This document shows positions 43,953 through 62,413 of a stretch of DNA of 64,000 bases, in pieces. The translations under genes were made by a program, and so were the position numbers. The first letter of the stretch is position 1; every line of letters begins with the position of its first letter. Origin of the DNA: a virus; IMG/VR virus record IMGVR_UViG_3300035698_035275, positions 1 to 64,000 of that record, one strand, 5' to 3'. The notes beneath the pieces were generated by a model. That model worked only from the letters and a program-made list of their open reading frames with translations, was not told the DNA's origin and did no database searches.

Positions 43953-44501
43953 TTATTCCTCCTTTTCAACGATTGGCAGAGTTATTTCGGATTGGCCCTG
44001 GTATTTACCGGATCTTGAATAGTAGTTGGTAGCGCACGCGGCACCGCGAAAGAATATAGCCTGCATTATTCCTTCTCTAGCATGCACCCTTACCGGTAAT
44101 GGGGTGCTGTTGCTTATTTCTATTGTAACCTTCCCGTGCCACCCAGGTTCAAGCGGTGTTACATTGACGATTATTCCGCACCTTGCATATGTGCTCTTCC
44201 CAATACATATTGCTATTACATTGTCCGGCATGTGGATAGTCTCTACGGACTTAGCCAGGGCGAATGAGTTAGGCGGTATGTCACAATAATCACCTTCCAC
44301 CCGTACGAATGATTCCGTCTTCATATTCTTCGGGTCTATCGTGACATTGTGCACATTATGGAACACTAGGAACTCGTTATCTACACGCAGGTCGTACCCA
44401 TACGATGACACCCCATACGATATTACCCCACTCGACACCTGCTTATTAAGAAATGGATCTACTATCTTATGATTTTCAATCTGTCTGTCGTTCAGTATCA
44501 C
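43953..44501 (-). CDS. dcd: dCTP deaminase
   Basis: A 182-residue product if read from GTG 44501. That start gives M-I-L-N-D-R-Q-I, matching the family's M-I-L-S-D start, and GGAGG lies about 5 nt upstream. An ATG at 44513 adds four residues and has no ribosome site. G-K-S-T-Y-A-R-C-G, P-L-E-P-G-W-H-G-K-V-T-I-E128 (probable catalytic Glu) and G-K-Y-Q-G-Q are the Dcd signatures. It converts dCTP to dUTP, feeding dUMP/dTMP synthesis together with the dUTPase domain encoded at 59222-60211. Confidence 0.92.
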   Translation of the reverse strand: MILNDRQIENHKIVDPFLNKQVSSGVISYGVSSYGYDLRVDNEFLVFHNVHNVTIDPKNMKTESFVRVEGDYCDIPPNSFALAKSVETIHMPDNVIAICIGKSTYARCGIIVNVTPLEPGWHGKVTIEISNSTPLPVRVHAREGIMQAIFFRGAACATNYYSRSGKYQGQSEITLPIVEKEE

Positions 44502-44536
44502 CTTTTCCTCCATTATATTGCTATTTAATCGGCATA

Positions 44537-47431: not shown

Positions 47432-48751
47432 ATGGACAAGAAGACCGAGAAAGTTATTGCATCGCTGTTGAAGAAGGATGCAATCAAGCTGATTGACGCT
47501 GAAGGCAAGAAGAAGAAAGCCGTGTCTGTCAAGGCTAGCAACATCGATTGCAGTATATCGCTGCCTACGGTGTCGAGTCTGACAGGCAACAAGCAGATGT
47601 ATGTCGAAATGGATGGTGATATGCACCGCCTGATGGGGGTTGCCGCTAAGCAGCAGAAGCCAAGAAGCCCCAAATATGACCTCAAGTTCATAGTGGAGGT
47701 TGGCGGCAAGAAGAAGTACATCAACCCCGATAAAATCGACGGGTTCACCAACGATTACGCCGACGCTGACGACGCTGACGACGCTGACGACGCTGACACC
47801 AATGAACAGCAGGATGACACGTCCCCCACACCGTCTACCCCCTTGGCTATTGGTGGTCTGCCCACCAAACCGGTAATGACCGAGGCCGACATCCCGAAAA
47901 GATTCCTCGACAAAAAGAAAGTCCCGTACTCCCACATCAAGATGTACAACGAGATGAAGAATATGGCCGGTGACGAAATCTCCGAGCTGCATAACGTCAT
48001 CTTTGGCGTTCCGCCTGACTTGCTGGGTGCCAGCGATGACGAGGCGGACTTCTACCGGAAGCGCTGCTATTACGGGTACGGTCTTGTTGTCTCGAAGGAG
48101 GTCAATATTGAAAAGTTCGTTGAGAATCTCAACGGCCTTGTCAAGTTTGAGAAGAAGACCAACAACATTGGATCGGTTACTGGCAAGCCCAAGAAGGCGG
48201 CAGTGACGGATGACGGAATCGGCACAATCAAAACCGTCGAGGGCAACCGTGTCAGGGTTAACCCCAGCTCCGTGGTCTTCATAGATGAGGACCCAATCAT
48301 CAAACGACGCATCCCGAAGAACGGATTCAGAGACGAACTCGCTGAGAAGCTCTTCTATATGACGATGAAACAGGTCTGCGCCTACGCTGTGGAAATCGGC
48401 GCGTGTGACAAGGATGATGTCAAAAAATACCTGAATGCGTCCGACAACAACAACGATCCGGGTCTTGCTCGCATGGCCATCGGAAACCGCATCCGTGGAC
48501 AGGTCAATCGAAACGAGCGTGGTGATGCGCCCAAGAAGGAAAAGAAGAAGTCAGGTGTTAAGGCCGTTCCGGGCGAGAAGTCTCTGGCGCAGTTAGCTGT
48601 TAAGGCTGCTGTAAAAGCAAAGGCGAAAGCTGCCACCAAGGACACTGTGGAAGAGAAGAGCGCCGACAAAAAGCCGCCGAGTGTAAGAAGCAGTCTGGCC
48701 AAGCTCGCTGCCGCCAAGAAGGGCAAGAAGAAGAATAAGGCCAGTAAGTGA
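47432..48751 (+). CDS. highly expressed charged protein, function unknown
   Basis: A 439-residue product. ATG 47432 has GGAAGGA 7 nt upstream; an earlier TTG at 47363 has no ribosome site. It is Lys-rich at both ends, with an A-D-D repeat near residue 110 (9-nt DNA repeat) and a structured middle (F-R-D-E-L-A-E-K-L-F near 310). Codons strongly avoid ATA and AGG, like the capsid gene, which suggests high expression. The Lys/Ala-rich C-terminus resembles histone-like tails. It may be an abundant DNA-binding or replication-organising protein. Confidence 0.65.
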   Translation: MDKKTEKVIASLLKKDAIKLIDAEGKKKKAVSVKASNIDCSISLPTVSSLTGNKQMYVEMDGDMHRLMGVAAKQQKPRSPKYDLKFIVEVGGKKKYINPDKIDGFTNDYADADDADDADDADTNEQQDDTSPTPSTPLAIGGLPTKPVMTEADIPKRFLDKKKVPYSHIKMYNEMKNMAGDEISELHNVIFGVPPDLLGASDDEADFYRKRCYYGYGLVVSKEVNIEKFVENLNGLVKFEKKTNNIGSVTGKPKKAAVTDDGIGTIKTVEGNRVRVNPSSVVFIDEDPIIKRRIPKNGFRDELAEKLFYMTMKQVCAYAVEIGACDKDDVKKYLNASDNNNDPGLARMAIGNRIRGQVNRNERGDAPKKEKKKSGVKAVPGEKSLAQLAVKAAVKAKAKAATKDTVEEKSADKKPPSVRSSLAKLAAAKKGKKKNKASK

Positions 48752-49233
48752 TCTACCTGGGACATCCAATAGATATGGCATCAAAGAGGTACGATCCCAC
48801 CCAGCTCTTGGCAGCAATGTCAGGGGCTGGGTGCCAATCTGTGTATGTGCCATCTTCAGCGTTCAGGGTGCATACAAACTCCGAGGCGTACGCGTCCGGT
48901 GCTGACCCGCGTTCGTTGTGTAGGATAAATGACTTTGCAATGTCTATGTGCACTTCAGCAATATTTATTTATGCACAGAAGAAGTCCGTATGCCTGCCTA
49001 TTGAGCTGGAGAATGCGACGAAGGGCAACATAAGGGCGGTAGACGGCGGCCTGCTGAATGTGTATGTAGTGTGTCCGTGGGTGTTTAAGTCTGTAAAGAT
49101 GATAGAGATGGTGACATACGGCGCTCCGTCTAGAATAAATGTATACAATAGTGAGGGTGGGCTTATAGAGGACATAGTGTCAAGGTCGGATAGGGTGTCT
49201 AACTTGTTATCCAGTGAGCTGCTGGAAGCCTAA
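48748..49233 (+). CDS. nucleoside 2-deoxyribosyltransferase-like protein
   Basis: A 161-residue product. GTG 48748 overlaps the previous stop (GTGA). M-I-Y-L-G-H-P-I-D at the start, G-A-G-C-Q-S-V-Y-V-P near residue 26, N-D-F-A-M-S-M-C-T near 61, and S-V-C-L-P-I-E-L-E-N-A near 80-90 follow the layout of the nucleoside 2-deoxyribosyltransferase/DUF4406 group, whose Glu (86 or 88 here) attacks the sugar. It could exchange bases on deoxynucleosides. The similarity is partial. Confidence 0.45.
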   Translation: MIYLGHPIDMASKRYDPTQLLAAMSGAGCQSVYVPSSAFRVHTNSEAYASGADPRSLCRINDFAMSMCTSAIFIYAQKKSVCLPIELENATKGNIRAVDGGLLNVYVVCPWVFKSVKMIEMVTYGAPSRINVYNSEGGLIEDIVSRSDRVSNLLSSELLEA

Positions 49234-53610: not shown

Positions 53611-56097
53611 ATGTCCTGTGACGGCTGTCCATTACGCGGTGTAAGCATAAATACAAAAGTGCCTGGGGGTGGTAGTAATAGCCCATCAATAATGCTGGTA
53701 GGTGAGGCACCAGGGAGAGAAGAGGACGAATTAAATCAAGTGTTTGTGGGTCCGGTCGGGGTGTTCCTAAGAGAATGCATGGCCAGCATGGAGGTAGACG
53801 CATCCGATATCTACTTCACTAATATTGTAAAGTGCAGGCCACCGAATAACAAGCTGGTAGGCAAATATAAAAAGGCCGTAAAGCACTGTAAGGAGTACCT
53901 GCTAGAGGAAATAGAAAGGCTGTCCCCGACGGTTATAGTGCCTCTCGGTGACACAGCAATGGAAGCATTACTAGGAATACGCGGTATTTGGAAGAACCAC
54001 GGCAGGGTAATAGATAGAGACGGAATCCCTGTAGTACCCACTTTCCACCCGTCATACGTCAAATTCTACAATAAGAGTGACCAGGTATTTGACTTATACT
54101 CCCAGGACCTATATAATGCTGCGGTAATAGCAGAGGGCGGCACGCCAGAAATTATAATACCAGACGTTGACTATATAACAGAGGGTGTTACTAATGACGA
54201 TATATTGCTGCTGCTCAAGGCGGATATACTGTCTATAGACATCGAGACTAACACAGTCAGCACGCACTATTGCACCATATCGGCGGATGCTGACAGGGGA
54301 CCACGAATACTGTCGATATCGTTTTCATGGGATGAGGGCGTCGCAATGTTTGTCCCATGGGATGAGGAGCACATGCCAGCTATAAAGGCAGTGTTGGAGT
54401 CGGACATCCCAAAGGTGGCGCATAACTGGAAATTTGAATACTCGTGGCTAGTGTTAAAAGAGGGTATTGCCGTTAGCAACATATACATGGATACCATGCT
54501 AGCACATTACCTGGTGGACGAAAACAGCAGGCACGGGTTGAAGGAGCTAGCGTACACGTACACCGATATTGGTGGGTATGACGTGGAGATGGATGTGTAC
54601 ATAGGTGATCACCCGGAGTGTGACCCAAAGAAGAGCGGGTCATATGCGAATATACCGCTTAGGCTACTATCTAAGTACAATTGTGGAGACGTGGATGCGA
54701 CCCTGCGAATAGCGCGTAAGCTTAGCAAGGTAATGGATGACAAACTGTGGTCACTACATAATAACATACTGGTGCCAGCGGCTGAGATGCTGTCTCGGGC
54801 GGAGCTTAGCGGGTTTGAGTTAGATATTGATATGTGGGACTGCCTGAACAACGAGTATACGGCTAAGGTTAGTGAAGCTATTGATGACGCTATGTCTATT
54901 GACGAGGTTAGGCACTTCTGGAAGTATTATAAGGAGTCCACCAAGGCCAAGGGAGACAGGGTTAATCTTAGGTCTTCCAAGCAGGTATCGCTCTTAATGA
55001 CGGAGTACTTCAGATTTCCAGTGATAAGGGAAACCGACTCCGGCAATCCGTCATGGGATTCCGAGGTAATAGACGAGCTGCTAAGGATGGATAGGTACAA
55101 GGGGAATAAATTCCTGCCGATACTAAAAAGAGTAAGAAGCATTTTGCAGATACAAAGCAACTGTCTAGGGACGACGCCTAAGCAAATAGCGGAGTCGGTT
55201 GATGCCAGGGTGCATACGAATTTTATCTTGCATTTTGTAGTCACTGGTCGCCTGTCGTCTAGAAACCCAAATATGCAGGCTATTCCTAGAGAGTCTACTG
55301 TTGGCCCGTTGAACGTGCCGTCAATAAAGACAATGTATATTTCCAGGTACGACGGCGGGAACATTGTACAGGCCGACTATAGCCAGATAGAGCTTAGGAT
55401 ATTGGCTATGCTGTCTGGTGATAAGGCGTTCAGGCGCATATTTGAAGAGGGGCTGGACCCGCATGCTAGTGTTGGGGTTAATATATACAAAATGCTAGAG
55501 GGGAAGGACATAGACATAGCGGACCTGCCGAAAGAGTGGAGAGATAAAGGGAAGACAACCAACTTTGCAATAGTGTATGGGCAGACACCAGAGGGGATGG
55601 CTAAAAAGCTAGGCTGTACAGACGCGGAAGCTAAGAAGATGATGTCTGCCACCATGTCTACATACTCGGGAATAGACGACCTGCTTAAGGGGTATAGGAA
55701 TGATGTCATAAAGAATGGGTATGTTGAATCCCCATTTGGCAGGAGGAGGAGACTGCCGATAATCGAGGGTATGAGTAGGTCAGATAAGAATGCGGCACTG
55801 AGAGAGGCCGGTAATCACCCTGTACAAAGTGCCGCGTCGGACATGACCCTATACTCAGCGGTACTACTGGATGCCGAAATCAGAAGACTGGGTATGAAGT
55901 CGCACATAATATGCCTTGTGCACGACTCGATAATACTGGATACTCCCAGTAATGAGACTGAAAAGGTGTGTAAGATGGTAGGGGATATTATGAGGTCATT
56001 ACACAAGCATTTCGACTGGATAGACGGCAGTTTCCCGATAGAGGTAGACGTTGAGTATGGCCCGTCATGGGGCGAGCTTAACGAGTACGAGGCATGA
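53611..56097 (+). CDS. family A DNA polymerase with N-terminal family 4 uracil-DNA glycosylase domain
   Basis: An 828-residue replicative polymerase. ATG 53611 follows GAGG. Residues 1-190 form a family 4 uracil-DNA glycosylase: Cys3/Cys6, G-E-A-P-G-R-E-E-D, C-R-P-P-N-N-K with a fourth Cys in K-H-C-K-E-Y, and F-H-P-S-Y. The four Cys would hold an Fe-S cluster. Residues about 205-390 are a 3'-5' exonuclease (D-I-E-T, H-N-W-K-F-E-Y, Y-N-C-G-D-V-D). The rest is the polymerase: Q-A-D-Y-S-Q-I-E-L-R (A), T-N-F-A-I-V-Y-G (B), V-H-D-S-I (C, HDS rather than HDE). UDG-like fusions occur in SPO1-type polymerases. With a PurZ-like gene nearby it is a DpoZ candidate. Confidence 0.92.
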   Translation: MSCDGCPLRGVSINTKVPGGGSNSPSIMLVGEAPGREEDELNQVFVGPVGVFLRECMASMEVDASDIYFTNIVKCRPPNNKLVGKYKKAVKHCKEYLLEEIERLSPTVIVPLGDTAMEALLGIRGIWKNHGRVIDRDGIPVVPTFHPSYVKFYNKSDQVFDLYSQDLYNAAVIAEGGTPEIIIPDVDYITEGVTNDDILLLLKADILSIDIETNTVSTHYCTISADADRGPRILSISFSWDEGVAMFVPWDEEHMPAIKAVLESDIPKVAHNWKFEYSWLVLKEGIAVSNIYMDTMLAHYLVDENSRHGLKELAYTYTDIGGYDVEMDVYIGDHPECDPKKSGSYANIPLRLLSKYNCGDVDATLRIARKLSKVMDDKLWSLHNNILVPAAEMLSRAELSGFELDIDMWDCLNNEYTAKVSEAIDDAMSIDEVRHFWKYYKESTKAKGDRVNLRSSKQVSLLMTEYFRFPVIRETDSGNPSWDSEVIDELLRMDRYKGNKFLPILKRVRSILQIQSNCLGTTPKQIAESVDARVHTNFILHFVVTGRLSSRNPNMQAIPRESTVGPLNVPSIKTMYISRYDGGNIVQADYSQIELRILAMLSGDKAFRRIFEEGLDPHASVGVNIYKMLEGKDIDIADLPKEWRDKGKTTNFAIVYGQTPEGMAKKLGCTDAEAKKMMSATMSTYSGIDDLLKGYRNDVIKNGYVESPFGRRRRLPIIEGMSRSDKNAALREAGNHPVQSAASDMTLYSAVLLDAEIRRLGMKSHIICLVHDSIILDTPSNETEKVCKMVGDIMRSLHKHFDWIDGSFPIEVDVEYGPSWGELNEYEA

Positions 56098-56913: not shown

Positions 56914-58080
56914 ATGGCTATAAAGATTAGACGCAGTGTCCTGGTTGATCAGGCAAAGCAAGCGCAGGAGTCCGGGGGCGGGAAGTATATGAAGTTTCAG
57001 GACGGAAAGACATATGTGCGCGTGCTCCCGTTCCTAGTAGAGAAGGGCATGTATGATGTCGCACTCAAATTTGGAACACACAACAACATACCGGGTGTGC
57101 GGGGTCCCGTCACGTGTAGACGCCTTTTCCCGAAGAAGTCCGCTAAGGGCAAGAGTCTGGAATGCCCTATCTGTATGGCAGTGGAGATGCTGGAGTTAGC
57201 CGGTGAGTCTGAGAAGGCTAACAAGCTCCGTGCCAATCCGAATCGGTGGGCAATGTACATGTACGATGTGTCGAACAAGCAGGGTCCGAAAACGGCAACC
57301 GTCGGATCGCAGATAGCCACTCCTATTCTGAAATACGGGGTGGACGATGAAGAGTACGGAGATGTATTTGATCCCAAGGTAGGGCGTGATTTCATCGTTG
57401 AGAAGACCGGCACCGGTATGGATACTGAGTACCAGGTACGTATTCGCGATGCAAGCAGATGCAAACCGGTGCCTGCGGCTGTCATGGCTAAGGTCAACTC
57501 GCTATTTGACGAGCTAAGACCGAAGTCATACGCGGAATTGCTCGAGATGATGGGTCCTTTGGGTCTGAACATTCCAAAAACCGAGTCGGCAATAGCAGCC
57601 AACAACGACGACGAGGAAGAGGACGACGTACCATTCGACAGCAGCGATGATGAGGACGACGACGAGGAAGAGGACGAAGACATCGATGAGGATGACGACG
57701 ACGAAGAGGAAGAGGACGAAGACATCGATGAGGATGACGAGGATGACGAGGATGACGAGGATGACGAGGATGACGAGGACGAGGAAATCGACTATGAGTC
57801 CTTAGGGTTCATCAACAGTGACGACCTGGAGGATACAGTGGGAAAGGTTGATGCATCCAATCCCAAAGTCAAGAAGCTGTTCGATAAGTGGGGGGCGGAA
57901 GACGGCACTAAGAGCGGCCTGCTGGTCATTCTGAAGAAGCAGAAGGTCTTTGCCGTGCAGAAACCCGGCAAGGCTGGCGGTGGTGGTGCTCTGGACAGGC
58001 TGAAGAAGAAGATGGAGAGCGCTAGCGACTCGAAAGCGAAGGTAAAAGCAAAAGCGAAGAAAACCGGCAGGAAGAAATAA
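56914..58080 (+). CDS. gp32-like single-stranded DNA-binding protein
   Basis: A 388-residue product. ATG 56914 has GGAGG 9 nt upstream. A H56-x11-C68-x15-C84-x-x-C87 zinc site, with V-R-V-L-P-F before it and R-W-A-M-Y-M-Y-D-V after it, matches T4 gp32-type proteins. It coats single-stranded DNA in replication and recombination. Residues about 232-292 are an almost unbroken Asp/Glu run from 9-nt DNA repeats. After it comes a small folded segment and a Lys-rich C-terminus. Most SSBs end in the acidic tail, so the basic end is unusual. Confidence 0.82.
   Translation: MAIKIRRSVLVDQAKQAQESGGGKYMKFQDGKTYVRVLPFLVEKGMYDVALKFGTHNNIPGVRGPVTCRRLFPKKSAKGKSLECPICMAVEMLELAGESEKANKLRANPNRWAMYMYDVSNKQGPKTATVGSQIATPILKYGVDDEEYGDVFDPKVGRDFIVEKTGTGMDTEYQVRIRDASRCKPVPAAVMAKVNSLFDELRPKSYAELLEMMGPLGLNIPKTESAIAANNDDEEEDDVPFDSSDDEDDDEEEDEDIDEDDDDEEEEDEDIDEDDEDDEDDEDDEDDEDEEIDYESLGFINSDDLEDTVGKVDASNPKVKKLFDKWGAEDGTKSGLLVILKKQKVFAVQKPGKAGGGGALDRLKKKMESASDSKAKVKAKAKKTGRKK
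57601..57789 (+). repeat. acidic-codon low-complexity repeat in SSB gene
   Basis: A GAY/GAR-rich tract coding for Asp/Glu. It includes 9-nt units (GAGGATGAC) between about 57735 and 57780 and two longer related blocks. Slippage could change its length. Confidence 0.85.
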
Positions 58081-58086
58081 CTAGCC

Positions 58087-59220
58087 ATGCCCAAATTCGG
58101 TAATGTAGACCTGATAATAGGCGGTCAGTACGGATCAGAGGGAAAAGGTAAACTCGCCGGGTATGTATCCCGGCGGGTTCCTTATTCCGTCGCCGTGTGC
58201 AACTTCACATCTCAAGCCGGTCATACATTTGTGTATGACGAAGGCAGAAAGGTTATTACGCAACAACTACCAACAGCTATAGTGAGTAGTTGTGAGAATA
58301 TAATGATAGGGCCTGGTGCTATCATAGATGAAGACGTACTGGAGAGGGAGATAAACGAGTACGGACTAACAGAAGCCAGACTTACTATAGACAGCAACGC
58401 TATAGTGATAGACCAGAGGCACAAAGACGCTGAGAGGGCCAACGCCATAAGGGTAGCATCAACGATGAAGGGCAATGGAGCTGCAGCAGCGGAGAAGTGT
58501 CTCAGATTCCAGGGCTTGAGGACTGCTGGCGATGACTCGTTCAGATTTAAGCAGTACGTTGGTGATGTGAGGTCGGCACTACACAATACGCACGTGATGG
58601 GTGGTGACATACTGCTGGAGGGGTCGCAAGGGTTCGACCTGGATGTTAATCTTGGATTTTATCCATTTGTCACCAGCAGGGGGACCACTAGCGCGGCAGA
58701 GCTTAGCAGGTGCGGCCTTTCGCCACAAAGCGTAAGGAATGTATTCGGCGCATATCGGACGTTCCCAATACGCGTTGGGAACTTGAAGGATGAAAACGGT
58801 GTGGAGGTGGGTAATTCCGGGCCTGTATACGATGACCAGACGGAGATGACGTGGGATGAGCTGTCTAGCCAATATGGGGGTGCTGATAAGCTGCTGGAGA
58901 GGACCACAGTGACAGGCAGGGTCAGAAGGGTGTTTACGTTCTCCCGGACCCAATTTGCCAGATCGATAGTGTCGAACGGGGTAAACTGCATATTTATAAA
59001 TTACGCTAACTACATCGACGGGGCCTTGTACGGTGCCAGTGGTGATAGTGACGATTCCCCATCGCGTAATGCCAAGCTTCTTGACTGGTTGCAGCAGAAC
59101 ATCGTTCCCGTCCTTTCGAAGGTGCACGATATAGGTGAGAGGGTCATTATACCACTTCTTATTGGTACTGGCCCCGCCGACTCTGACATGTTGTCGATTA
59201 ACATGATTGTGGGGTCCTAA
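58087..59220 (+). CDS. purZ: PurZ-like adenylosuccinate-synthetase homologue (2-aminoadenine pathway)
   Basis: A 377-residue product with the adenylosuccinate synthetase fold: G-G-Q-Y-G-S17-E-G-K-G-K (P-loop), A-G-H46-T, S-T-M-K-G-N-G near residue 127, E178-G-S-Q-G, F-V-T-S-R and T-V-T-G-R-V-R-R-V-F-T-F. In cellular PurA the position of Ser17 is the catalytic Asp (G-D-E-G-K-G-K). Its loss is the known mark of phage PurZ, which joins dGMP and Asp to form the precursor of 2-aminoadenine (Z). Phage PurZ proteins are about 340-380 residues against about 430 for PurA, and this one fits. His46 is kept. The gene lies between SSB and a kinase-dUTPase fusion. A cellular-type PurA function is less likely but not excluded. 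Confidence 0.85.
   Translation: MPKFGNVDLIIGGQYGSEGKGKLAGYVSRRVPYSVAVCNFTSQAGHTFVYDEGRKVITQQLPTAIVSSCENIMIGPGAIIDEDVLEREINEYGLTEARLTIDSNAIVIDQRHKDAERANAIRVASTMKGNGAAAAEKCLRFQGLRTAGDDSFRFKQYVGDVRSALHNTHVMGGDILLEGSQGFDLDVNLGFYPFVTSRGTTSAAELSRCGLSPQSVRNVFGAYRTFPIRVGNLKDENGVEVGNSGPVYDDQTEMTWDELSSQYGGADKLLERTTVTGRVRRVFTFSRTQFARSIVSNGVNCIFINYANYIDGALYGASGDSDDSPSRNAKLLDWLQQNIVPVLSKVHDIGERVIIPLLIGTGPADSDMLSINMIVGS
58153..58177 (+). other. GC-rich hairpin in 5' end of purZ-like gene
   Basis: CGCCGGG (58155-58161) and CCCGGCG (58169-58175) pair perfectly around a 7-nt loop, and two flanking pairs (one G-U) extend the stem to 9 bp. It falls at codons 23-31 and might slow translation or attenuate transcription. 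Confidence 0.5.
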
Positions 59221-59221
59221 T

Positions 59222-60211
59222 ATGCGAGGGTTCGAAGTAAAATTCGTGTCCGGCTATACAGGGTCTGGCAAGACGGCCTATACTGATAGGTTGCACCTGG
59301 ATACTGGGTGGCCGGTACTGCACATAGGTGACTCGTTAAGGGAGTTTGGTATATCGTCCAAATCCATATCCGAGATGCCGGATGCGCACGCTCCCGCGTC
59401 GTTGGACAAGATGGTTAATCAAACGGTGGCTAATTTCATTGCTGAAGCGTTAGGACCTGAAGGAGGGGGCGGCGTAATAATAGATGGATTTCCACGTAAG
59501 CCGTCGCAGGTTCACGAGGCATATGAGATGGTGTGTGGGCTGGTGCGTTACGCACCAGGAGAAATACGCCTAAGATTTGTATTTGTGACGGCACCTATTG
59601 ATACAAGAATATCCAGGGTGCTGAGTAGCAGGAGCGAGGCCAGAAGAGAGTTATCTGTAATGAAGATAGAATCGGAGTCTGCCGATATGGATAACTCTAT
59701 AAAAGTGGCAAAGGAGATCGAGAGAGGTAAGCCAGCGTTAGCAATGAGCATTATGGTTACAGAGACGGGGATAAAAGAGATATACCCAGGAGTGATGGTG
59801 GCAGATGTACTGGTGGTTGGAGACGGGTACAGAATGCCCGTGCATGCTGGGGACGTTGGGATAGACTTAAGCTCAAACGGCAGGGTTGAAATACTCCCTG
59901 GGGAGTTCAGCAATGTAGAAACCGGGGTAAGCGTTAAGATAGATGATAGATGCTGGGGAAGAGTGACCGGCAGATCATCGGCTGTATGGGGTAAGGGAAT
60001 AATGGTGATGGAGGGAGTCATTGACCCAGGGTATACCGGTGAGCTGTTTATGCTCGTGTATAACCCTGGGAAAAAGGCGGTGGTGGTGGATAGGGGAGAC
60101 AGAATAGCCCAACTAATTCTAATACCAAGGGTTGACTATAGCGTATTGAGGGTAGACAGTCTGCCAAAGACGAGTAGAGGCAATAAAGGATTCGGCTCAA
60201 CCGGTAAATGA
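59222..60211 (+). CDS. adenylate-kinase-like domain fused to dUTPase
   Basis: A 329-residue product. ATG 59222 has GGGG about 8 nt upstream; an in-frame TTG at 59207 lies inside purZ. The N-terminal domain (1 to about 195) has Walker A G-Y-T-G-S-G-K-T, a G-D-S-L-R-E segment, and I-I-D-G-F-P-R-K-P-S-Q, which fits the adenylate kinase signature. The C-terminal domain (from about 205) has all five dUTPase motifs: A-G-D-V-G-I-D-L, G-R-S-S-A, G-V-I-D-P-G-Y-T-G-E-L, G-D-R-I-A-Q-L and R-G-N-K-G-F-G-S-T-G. It would convert dUTP to dUMP and phosphorylate a nucleoside monophosphate, possibly dZMP or dAMP. Such a fusion is unusual. Confidence 0.85.
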   Translation: MRGFEVKFVSGYTGSGKTAYTDRLHLDTGWPVLHIGDSLREFGISSKSISEMPDAHAPASLDKMVNQTVANFIAEALGPEGGGGVIIDGFPRKPSQVHEAYEMVCGLVRYAPGEIRLRFVFVTAPIDTRISRVLSSRSEARRELSVMKIESESADMDNSIKVAKEIERGKPALAMSIMVTETGIKEIYPGVMVADVLVVGDGYRMPVHAGDVGIDLSSNGRVEILPGEFSNVETGVSVKIDDRCWGRVTGRSSAVWGKGIMVMEGVIDPGYTGELFMLVYNPGKKAVVVDRGDRIAQLILIPRVDYSVLRVDSLPKTSRGNKGFGSTGK

Positions 60212-60229: not shown

Positions 60230-62413
60230 ATGAATAACAGAAGCAAGTTGGTCCTGTCACCAGATAGGAAAACAGCGATATTTGGGGAGAGGTACGCCAA
60301 GAAGGGTGAAGATTCGGTGGAGTCTGTCATGCACAGAGTAGCGATGGCAGTAGCTACCAGTTATGAGAGCAACCACGGCGGCAAGCTGGAGGATACTGCC
60401 GATATAGTGGATGAGTGGGTAGGGTATATGTCGAGGTTCGAGTTTGTTCCTGGCGGTCGTATTCTGTCTAATGCAGGCGTTGACAAGAATCTGCTGAACT
60501 GCTTTGTAGTGCCGGTGGATGACAGCATAGGGGGCATATTCGACTCGCTGAAAAGAAGCATGATGATACAAGGGGTTGGTGGTGGTGTTGGGTTCAACTT
60601 CGGCGGAATAAGGCCGAAGGGGTATCCGACATCCGGCCTTGGTGTGGCCTCTGGCCCGTGCAGCTTTATAGATGTATTTGATAAGGCCAGTGATACAATA
60701 AGCTCTACCTCTGACAGGAAAGCCGCTAATATGGGGATACTGCCAGTGTGGCACCCAGACATACGGGAGTTTATCAGATCAAAGGTAGGGAACGACGGCA
60801 ATACTGGTAGATGGATAAAATTCAATATATCAGTGGCTGTGAATAACAAGTTTATCAATGCTGTCAAGTCGGGGTCCGGATTTGACTTGATGTGGGATGG
60901 AAAGGTAGTAGACACAATCGACGCGGCGGGATTGTGGAAGGAGATGGTGGATAGTCAATGGCTGTGTGGTGACCCTGGTTTGTGGAATTATGATACAGCC
61001 AACGAAATGAATAATACCGGGTACTTCCAGGAGCTGATAGGTACAAATCCGTGTGGTGAGATATCCCTGCCTGCTTGGGGTTCGTGCTGTCTGGGTTCAA
61101 TAAATCTCAGCAAATTCGTTGTCGATGGGTCGGTTGACATACCAGCCCTTGAGAGGGTCGCTGGTTCAGCGGTGAAATTCCTAGACTCGGTAATAACAGA
61201 AAATGAATACCTGTTTGATGAGATGGAAGCGGAGGCCAAGCTATCCAGGAGAATAGGGCTTGGAGTGATGGGCGTAGCTCACGCGTTAATGAAGATGGGT
61301 ATTAGATACGGCAGTGAGGAGGCCAGATTGGTTGTTGGGTCGATGATGACCACAATAAGAGACGCAGCATACGAGACATCTACAATGCTGGCAACATGTA
61401 TGGGGTCGTTCACTGGGTATGACGAGAAGAAATATACGTCCAAAAAGTCAGGGTATACTAAGTCGCTCCCTAACGGGGTAATGGACAAGATAAAAGCACG
61501 CGGGATAAGAAATTCAACACTGCTCACGGTTGCCCCGACTGGAACGACATCGGTTGTAGCAGGTTCATCGTCTGGTATTGAGCCTGTATACTCGTTGAAA
61601 TTCGTACAGAAGAGGTTCAAGGACGGGTCGTGGCACTCTGAGAATGTAATGGACCCTATATACGAGGAGTGGCTTAATAAAAACCCCGAAGGTGCTGCCG
61701 TTCCTGACTATTTTGTGACGTCGAAGAACATACATCCGGATGATCACCTGAAGATGCAATTGGCTGTGCAGGCGGTGGTGGATAACAGCATAAGCAAGAC
61801 AATAAATATGCCAAGTCACGCGACTAGGCAGGAAGTATCAAAAGTGCTGCTGGACGCCATGACGGGCGGCGCTAAGGGCTGTACTATATACAGGGACGGC
61901 TCTTTGTCTCACCAACCCCTGAGTGACACGCCTAGTACAAGAAACAAGGGTGTAAAGATTAGGCGTGGGCTGACGTATGAAATAAGTACGCCACAGGGGA
62001 AGGCATATGTGACCATAAACGACTTTGAGCAGGGTGGTGGTCCGATGCAGGTGTTCATAAGGGCTGATAAGCCAGGGTCGGATTCCTACGCATATTGCAA
62101 TGCAATGGGTAGGCTGATATCGATAGGGCTGCAAGACGGCACCGACCCGAAGAGAATAGCAAACACTCTAATGGGTATAAACTCATCCGGTGTGACATGG
62201 GAATTTATGCCAGACAGCCAGGATAAGCCGGTCACGATAACTTCAGTGCCAGACGCGGTAGCAAAGCTTATGCTATCCTACTGTGGGGAGCCGGTAGTAA
62301 TAATGGATAATGCGTCGTCGAAGGCTGTTATGTGCAGCAACTGCGGCGCTCCGATGGAAATGATAGAGGGTTGTCTAACGTGCAGGAGCTGCGGAAATGC
62401 TCTGTGCCAATAA
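60230..62413 (+). CDS. nrdJ: class II (adenosylcobalamin-type) ribonucleotide reductase
   Basis: A 727-residue product. ATG 60230 follows AGGGG. F-V-P-G-G-R-I-L-S-N-A-G, L-L-N-C-F-V, G-G-G-V-G-F-N-F, N-P-C-G-E-I-S-L and A-P-T-G-T-T-S are the reductase motifs. The C-terminus has C-S-N-C-G-A-P then C-L-T-C-R-S-C-G and a final Cys, a zinc ribbon typical of class II NrdJ. It makes deoxynucleotides, including dGDP needed for PurZ substrate. No small subunit is present or needed. Confidence 0.92.
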   Translation: MNNRSKLVLSPDRKTAIFGERYAKKGEDSVESVMHRVAMAVATSYESNHGGKLEDTADIVDEWVGYMSRFEFVPGGRILSNAGVDKNLLNCFVVPVDDSIGGIFDSLKRSMMIQGVGGGVGFNFGGIRPKGYPTSGLGVASGPCSFIDVFDKASDTISSTSDRKAANMGILPVWHPDIREFIRSKVGNDGNTGRWIKFNISVAVNNKFINAVKSGSGFDLMWDGKVVDTIDAAGLWKEMVDSQWLCGDPGLWNYDTANEMNNTGYFQELIGTNPCGEISLPAWGSCCLGSINLSKFVVDGSVDIPALERVAGSAVKFLDSVITENEYLFDEMEAEAKLSRRIGLGVMGVAHALMKMGIRYGSEEARLVVGSMMTTIRDAAYETSTMLATCMGSFTGYDEKKYTSKKSGYTKSLPNGVMDKIKARGIRNSTLLTVAPTGTTSVVAGSSSGIEPVYSLKFVQKRFKDGSWHSENVMDPIYEEWLNKNPEGAAVPDYFVTSKNIHPDDHLKMQLAVQAVVDNSISKTINMPSHATRQEVSKVLLDAMTGGAKGCTIYRDGSLSHQPLSDTPSTRNKGVKIRRGLTYEISTPQGKAYVTINDFEQGGGPMQVFIRADKPGSDSYAYCNAMGRLISIGLQDGTDPKRIANTLMGINSSGVTWEFMPDSQDKPVTITSVPDAVAKLMLSYCGEPVVIMDNASSKAVMCSNCGAPMEMIEGCLTCRSCGNALCQ

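Follow-up and report, generated by a model that had tools for sequence, protein, structure and literature searches.

Which enzyme carries dZMP towards dZTP in phages that encode PurZ, the protein used by some phages to make Z (2-aminoadenine), an unusual base of DNA? The steps from dZMP to dZTP have been assigned to host enzymes, and the enzymes that lead from dSMP, the product of PurZ, to dZTP have not been found on phage genomes (PMC8342488). A 2026 survey of the nucleotide enzymes of Z-phages leaves the steps from dZMP to dZTP to host or uncharacterised phage proteins, and the word 'kinase' is absent from its main text (PMC12884076). No phage dZMP kinase was found described in the open full-text literature, which omits most subscription papers, the first accounts of PurZ among them. 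The question is raised here by a gene directly after purZ in a virus, studied in a window of 64,000 bases taken from a linear record of 66,842 that may be incomplete. With a probability of roughly 0.55, this gene encodes an enzyme with two functions in the making of Z-DNA precursors, in which a kinase domain would turn dZMP into dZDP while a DutZ-type domain (related to the DutZ of phage Wayne) would drain dATP and free dGMP. For the kinase, dZMP is the best candidate substrate, as judged from genomic context and from the residues of the base pocket.

The gene (59222-60211, plus strand) is a single open frame of 329 amino acids that translates without a stop, while the opposite strand holds many stops, and its ATG lies one base past the stop of purZ. 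An adenylate-kinase-like domain is followed in the same frame by a domain of the trimeric dUTPase fold. The first, proposed as a dZMP kinase (residues 1 to about 190; 59222-59800, plus strand), is recognised by Pfam, by a family profile and by an AlphaFold2 model. It matches Pfam AAA_17 over residues 11-149 (E 2.3e-9, 38.1 bits against a cut-off of 27) and Pfam ADK over residues 10-104 (E 3e-4, 21.3 bits, below the curated cut-off of 26.8). Since the ADK cut-off is missed and AAA_17, of the same superfamily, passes, the domain is called adenylate-kinase-like rather than adenylate kinase (Adk). The P-loop and the adenylate kinase signature that the initial annotation had read in this domain are indeed present in the translation (G11-x-x-G-S-G-K17 and I-I-D-G-F-P-R92-K-P-S-Q96, with G36 and R40 between them), and with them all the residues that mark membership of the nucleoside monophosphate (NMP) kinase family (the P-loop GxxGxGK, R40, R92 and Q96). 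The second domain (59822-60208, plus strand; placed by Pfam and by a tree) matches Pfam dUTPase over residues 208-328 (E 1e-24), and each of the five dUTPase motifs claimed for it was found (AGDVGIDL, GRSS, GVIDPGYTGEL, GDRIAQLIL and RGNKGFGSTG). A possible internal start codon (ATG at 59795-59797, plus strand) stands in frame at the domain junction, two bases behind AGGAG at 59788-59792, so that a free C-terminal domain could also be translated. An identical copy of the fusion is carried by a second contig, IMGVR_UViG_3300031697_000018, which is probably the same virus; the copy therefore argues against a lone misassembly, yet it does not count as an independent genome. A near-identity DNA search of phages and plasmids gave no matches.

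Around the fusion, the gene order is an SSB-like gene, purZ, the fusion and nrdJ. The purZ-type gene (58087-59220, plus strand, 377 amino acids; phrog_1211) has Ser where PurA has its catalytic Asp13 (QYGSEGKGK). Its match to the NCBIfam PurZ model NF038379 (E 4e-66, 223.3 bits) is under the cut-off of 300 bits, which was set for that model's own subgroup, and is still the best among NCBIfam models. In a maximum-likelihood tree of 85 PurZ proteins, built without a PurA outgroup, it is sister to the PurZ0 clade of phages Wayne and Ghobes (support 98/92). Directly upstream lies the single-strand DNA-binding-protein-like gene with an acidic low-complexity tail (56914-58080, plus strand; phrog_1192, E 5e-20), and the next gene after the fusion is a class II, B12-dependent ribonucleotide reductase, NrdJ (60230-62413, plus strand; TIGR02504, 522.6 bits, over the cut-off). 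Farther away, a DmtZ-like gene of the NDT family (48748-49233, plus strand) aligns with a DmtZ alignment in hhalign (probability 95%, E 2.6e-8; E 6e-8 with our own HMM) and keeps the Tyr/Asn/Glu triad of the NDT fold (Y3, N61, E86) together with the base-reading Asp. An HMM search of the window found no datZ, mazZ or DUF550, and the whole, possibly incomplete 66.8 kb record gave no match to datZ. Another nucleotide-pool gene encodes a dCTP deaminase (43953-44513, minus strand; Pfam DCD E 2e-33, phrog_1663). A family-4 uracil-DNA glycosylase is fused to a family A DNA polymerase with a 3'-5' exonuclease (53611-56097, plus strand; Pfam and NCBIfam), whose scores against the NCBIfam DpoZ models (57.7 and 25.3 bits) are far under the cut-offs of 500 and 350. 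Possibly this fusion senses uracil as the DNA is replicated; genes of the DutZ type and for dCTP deaminase are present in the same phage.

Kinases of this type come after purZ in many uncultivated phages, and how closely they are tied to it can be judged from purZ loci elsewhere. Two PurZ alignments and one dUTPase alignment yielded 230 phage or viral loci, which came down to 154 at 90% identity and to 147 with at least 1.5 kb of downstream sequence. A kinase is found in 33 of these 147; since the second PurZ scan targeted PurZs of the kinase type, this proportion is no measure of natural frequency. It stands directly after purZ in 32 of the 33 (gap -36 to +290 bp), as does the stand-alone adenylate-kinase-like gene of L004, the first PurZ relative found. 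Reverse searches with two kinase alignments, in which purZ was not used, returned 10 and 6 loci, and purZ lies directly upstream in all 16. These scans relied on two closer sub-alignments, the full profile (A4) being too diverged for a pattern scan, and the alignments were built from purZ-linked members, so remoter relatives without purZ could be missed. The fusion has not turned out to be common in phages without purZ, a finding on which the initial annotation had made its proposal depend: the kinases of the window, L004 and L094 match nothing by tblastn in 50,697 phage records, and the more canonical kinase of Bacillus phage vB_BpsS-140 (L006) matches 15 of them. The kinase domain thus co-occurs with purZ, and the exact order of kinase and DutZ-type domain has so far been seen only in this virus. 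For comparison, the gene after purZ in Wayne encodes DUF5664, and those in Ghobes and PermaG match nothing; none could be taken as a kinase.

The kinase family itself is close to adenylate kinases in profile and in fold. Its profile matches adenylate kinases in the PDB with E 1e-21 and UMP/CMP kinases with 1e-17. The domain of the window was modelled with AlphaFold2 from 33 sequences (pLDDT 87.6). In VIA-align the model agrees best with adenylate kinases (B. subtilis Adk, 2oo7_B; rmsd 3.1 over 163 residues, Z 15.9), closely followed by UMP/CMP kinases and the kinase domains of PFKFB (Z about 14.5). By E-value, the top Foldseek match is human UMP-CMP kinase, ahead of adenylate kinases. With both programs placing the model near UMP-CMP kinase, the substrate cannot be read from the fold alone. 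At about 20% identity, G16, K17, P91, R92 and Q96 are invariant in 35 of 35 purZ-linked kinases, and G36, R40, D88 and R132 are nearly so. In Adk, the arginine equivalent to R92 binds the phosphate of AMP and Gln92 reads N1 and N6 of adenine, which Z presents in the same way as A; in UMP/CMP kinases, Asn takes the place of this Gln. Q96 fits AMP or dAMP equally well. The Leu-Val pair of Adk (E. coli 58-59), present in 9/9 and 8/9 bacterial Adks respectively, is replaced in the purZ-linked kinases, mostly by polar or small residues, which is a hint, though not proof, of an altered base pocket. Compared with adenylate kinase (PF00406, EC 2.7.4.3), therefore, the fold, the P-loop, the arginines for the NMP phosphate and the adenine-reading Gln are shared, whereas the low identity, the changed base-pocket segment and the fusion or coupling to a domain of the dNTP-diphosphohydrolase type set the family apart. 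In a tree, 31 of the kinases stand apart and four (L006, L021 with L096, L279 and L309) group with bacterial Adks (100/99), so purZ probably acquired partners from the Adk family on two or more occasions. The finer branching is uncertain, given the long branches and a bootstrap that had not settled. The window kinase is among the more diverged members (branch length 2.26) and, in the alignment behind this tree, has Ser where 30 of the 35 have a lid arginine, for which the adjacent R137 may substitute. Between the adjacency to purZ, in 33 loci and in all 16 of the reverse searches, and the invariant NMP-binding residues of adenine type, the candidacy for a dZMP kinase put forward in the initial annotation is better supported than before.

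A different picture from the one first drawn emerges for the C-terminal domain. Together with 38 other purZ-linked domains, it is split (100/99) from 22 ordinary dUTPases, 16 bacterial and 6 from phages in which purZ was looked for only in the stretches read. The purZ-linked clade includes the characterised DutZ of Wayne, and on the same side lies the dUTPase of a purZ-bearing phage of Curtobacterium, Parvaparticeps. A scan with an IDxGY pattern found purZ near 74 of the 79 nearest viral relatives of the domain, a figure that is biased upward since the pattern was drawn partly from DutZ, and the tree with outside sequences is the better test. In Wayne and Ghobes, the DutZ enzymes retain dUTPase activity and hydrolyse both dGTP and dATP, the latter about ten times faster; the Wayne enzyme is joined to DmtZ, a destroyer of dAMP (PMC12884076). 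Sharing a clade with the DutZ of Wayne, a hydrolase of dATP and dGTP, the window domain would by homology hydrolyse both, and is thus more likely a drain on purine dNTPs with dUTPase activity retained; the coupling of Z to U/T nucleotide flow through a dUTPase, as first suggested, is probably wrong or incomplete. The fusion in Wayne is a close parallel, since it likewise lies downstream of a PurZ0-type gene and joins an N-terminal nucleotide-monophosphate enzyme to a C-terminal DutZ-type domain of the same clade (PMC12884076). The N-terminal domain of Wayne is, however, an NDT-fold dAMP hydrolase/transferase, whereas that of the window is an adenylate-kinase-like P-loop kinase, and the DmtZ-like gene of the window is separate, at the position given above.

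Across the 33 kinase loci, a domain of the dNTP-diphosphohydrolase type follows the kinase or is fused to it in 23 (14 DutZ-like and 9 of the dUTPase_2 family, which is unrelated to the trimeric DutZ-type domain). In 8 of the 23 the partner shares a frame with the kinase, the window being the sole DutZ fusion beside 7 dUTPase_2 fusions. One of the loci (L024, 11134-12687) has a triple fusion of 518 amino acids after purZ, in which adenylate-kinase-like and dUTPase_2 domains are followed by an NDT/DmtZ-like domain (hhalign probability 81%, E 1.2e-5). The fused dUTPase_2 domain was also considered as a MazZ, and an hhalign comparison with MazZ2 gave a probability of 3% and no convincing link.

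The kinase and datZ are largely found in different loci. Among the 147 loci, 64 have DatZ, 33 have the kinase and 2 have both, and a DatZ match occurs in 2 of 36 whole kinase records, the same two (L125, 4209-5260, and L158, 9355-11894, where the kinase is upstream of purZ). A Fisher test gives p 2e-7, a value that overstates independence because the loci are related through the PurZ tree and both labels follow that tree; the DatZ-type PurZs make up one side of a branch (97/91), and the pattern is one of lineage that a few events may underlie. The classical purZ-datZ-mazZ module (S-2L, phiVC8, SH-Ab 15497) is alike in pairing purZ with enzymes that drain dATP and supply dGMP, and differs in that the window has the kinase, with no datZ, mazZ or DUF550 found. 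The odds are about even that purZ, a Z-specific NMP kinase and a dNTP diphosphohydrolase form a third class of Z-DNA module, largely exclusive of datZ and mazZ, with a phage-encoded dZMP kinase that is here part of one bifunctional protein. Three loci (L062, L119, L138) carry DatZ together with a DutZ-like domain and are intermediate between the two published module types, and eight others (L022, L023, L037-L039, L057, L075, L084) have no kinase, DatZ, MazZ, DutZ or DmtZ gene within the locus stretch.

A cultured relative exists in phage vB_BpsS-140 (DSM 29700; MH884512.1, loci L344 and L345), whose PurZ is 38.6% identical and in which a kinase gene annotated adk is directly followed by a DutZ-type dut. 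In contrast to the window, the two genes are unfused and 9 kb from purZ, and the kinase is nearer to bacterial Adk. The DNA of this phage was cut by EcoRI and not by DraI, a DraI result unlike that of the other phages of the study, which leaves the adenylosuccinate synthetase of the phage unmentioned though adk is annotated (PMC6483233). The genome has 21 DraI sites (TTTAAA) and 24 EcoRI sites, and the resistance to DraI fits altered DNA without being specific to Z.

Kinase-like and PurZ-like domains also meet in bacterial chromosomes (Pseudomonas, Acidobacteria, Microvirga and others), where one protein begins with a P-loop kinase-like domain and continues as a PurZ-like protein that bears the Ser motif (L222, 9419-11047; L237, 9440-11113; L210, 9374-11035; and others of L201-L255). 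DUF7002 comes next, and in L222 a protein with M78-peptidase and macro domains precedes; the locus looks like an uncharacterised operon, possibly defence-like, and an independent fusion of kinase and PurZ. In other bacterial loci (L213, 9968-13319; L232, 132-3375) another PurZ-like gene carries the Ser motif, and the protein encoded after it has 730-760 amino acids and in L213 ends in an AAA ATPase domain.

If the fusion acts on Z-DNA precursors as proposed, the pathway would run as follows. The DutZ-type domain would hydrolyse dATP and dGTP (and dUTP) to monophosphates; dGMP would be turned by PurZ, whose activity is assumed by homology, into dSMP, and host PurB would convert dSMP into dZMP. 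The N-terminal domain would then phosphorylate dZMP to dZDP and host Ndk would complete dZTP, while the DmtZ-like enzyme would destroy the dAMP left by DutZ. Of this scheme, the sequences themselves establish the fusion, the protein families and the order of the genes. With both activities in one protein, dATP could be lowered, PurZ fed with dGMP and dZMP drawn onward. The kinase would be of use only if it disfavoured dAMP: DutZ yields dAMP, a plain dAMP kinase would return this to dATP, and a preference for dZMP is therefore expected of a kinase joined to DutZ. Against the need for such an enzyme, host enzymes complement the phiVC8 pathway in vitro (PMC8342488), so that a phage need not strictly bring a dZMP kinase of its own, and the 64 DatZ-type loci do nearly all without the kinase.

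Foremost among the rival readings is a conventional adenylate kinase that would belong to a general nucleotide operon and act on AMP or dAMP, for example to recycle adenylate during infection or support the ATP-using PurZ. Adenylate kinases are the closest relatives of solved structure and the closest in fold, PRxxxQ is an Adk signature, and the L006 copy looks canonical. Such an enzyme would, however, undo the removal of dATP by DutZ, the Leu-Val base-contact segment has been lost, and Adk-like genes, rare in phages to judge from the 15 records that match the L006 kinase, recur beside purZ; the reading is rated unlikely. The fusion could also pair a plain dUTPase with a dUMP/dTMP kinase and couple U and T flow, given that both partner folds carry dUTPase family names and that the tested DutZ enzymes keep dUTPase activity. 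This is a poor fit to a C-terminal domain of the purZ-linked clade, to the Gln that all 35 kinases have where UMP/CMP-type enzymes have Asn, to the 0 of 23 kinase records with a thymidylate-kinase domain above cut-off and to a virus record in which no ThyX was found, and it is held to be improbable.

The two remaining readings are rated lower again. Guanylate kinase is the host enzyme proposed for dZMP, which makes cross-reactivity between dGMP and dZMP plausible, and the kinase might act on dGMP, or broadly, to balance the dGMP drained by PurZ. That would be surprising for an Adk-like sequence and fold with an adenine-reading Gln, and for a family whose top profile and structure matches do not include guanylate kinase, so we regard this as very improbable. 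Least probable of all is that the kinase has nothing to do with Z metabolism and was inherited with purZ by descent or by sharing an operon. In its favour, the PurZ tree shows PurZs of the kinase type as a deep grade and not as numerous scattered gains; the probable two or more recruitments, the three partner arrangements (fused DutZ, fused dUTPase_2 and separate genes) and the kinase that vB_BpsS-140 has retained 9 kb from purZ but adjoining dut all speak against mere hitchhiking.

Under the preferred reading of a kinase that acts on dZMP, the purZ-linked family is a concrete candidate for the phosphorylation of the Z monophosphate, a step otherwise credited to the host. If this is true, it would provide an enzyme for the laboratory synthesis of Z-DNA precursors, and for the phages themselves the family suggests how the pools of Z and A could be kept apart at the monophosphate level.
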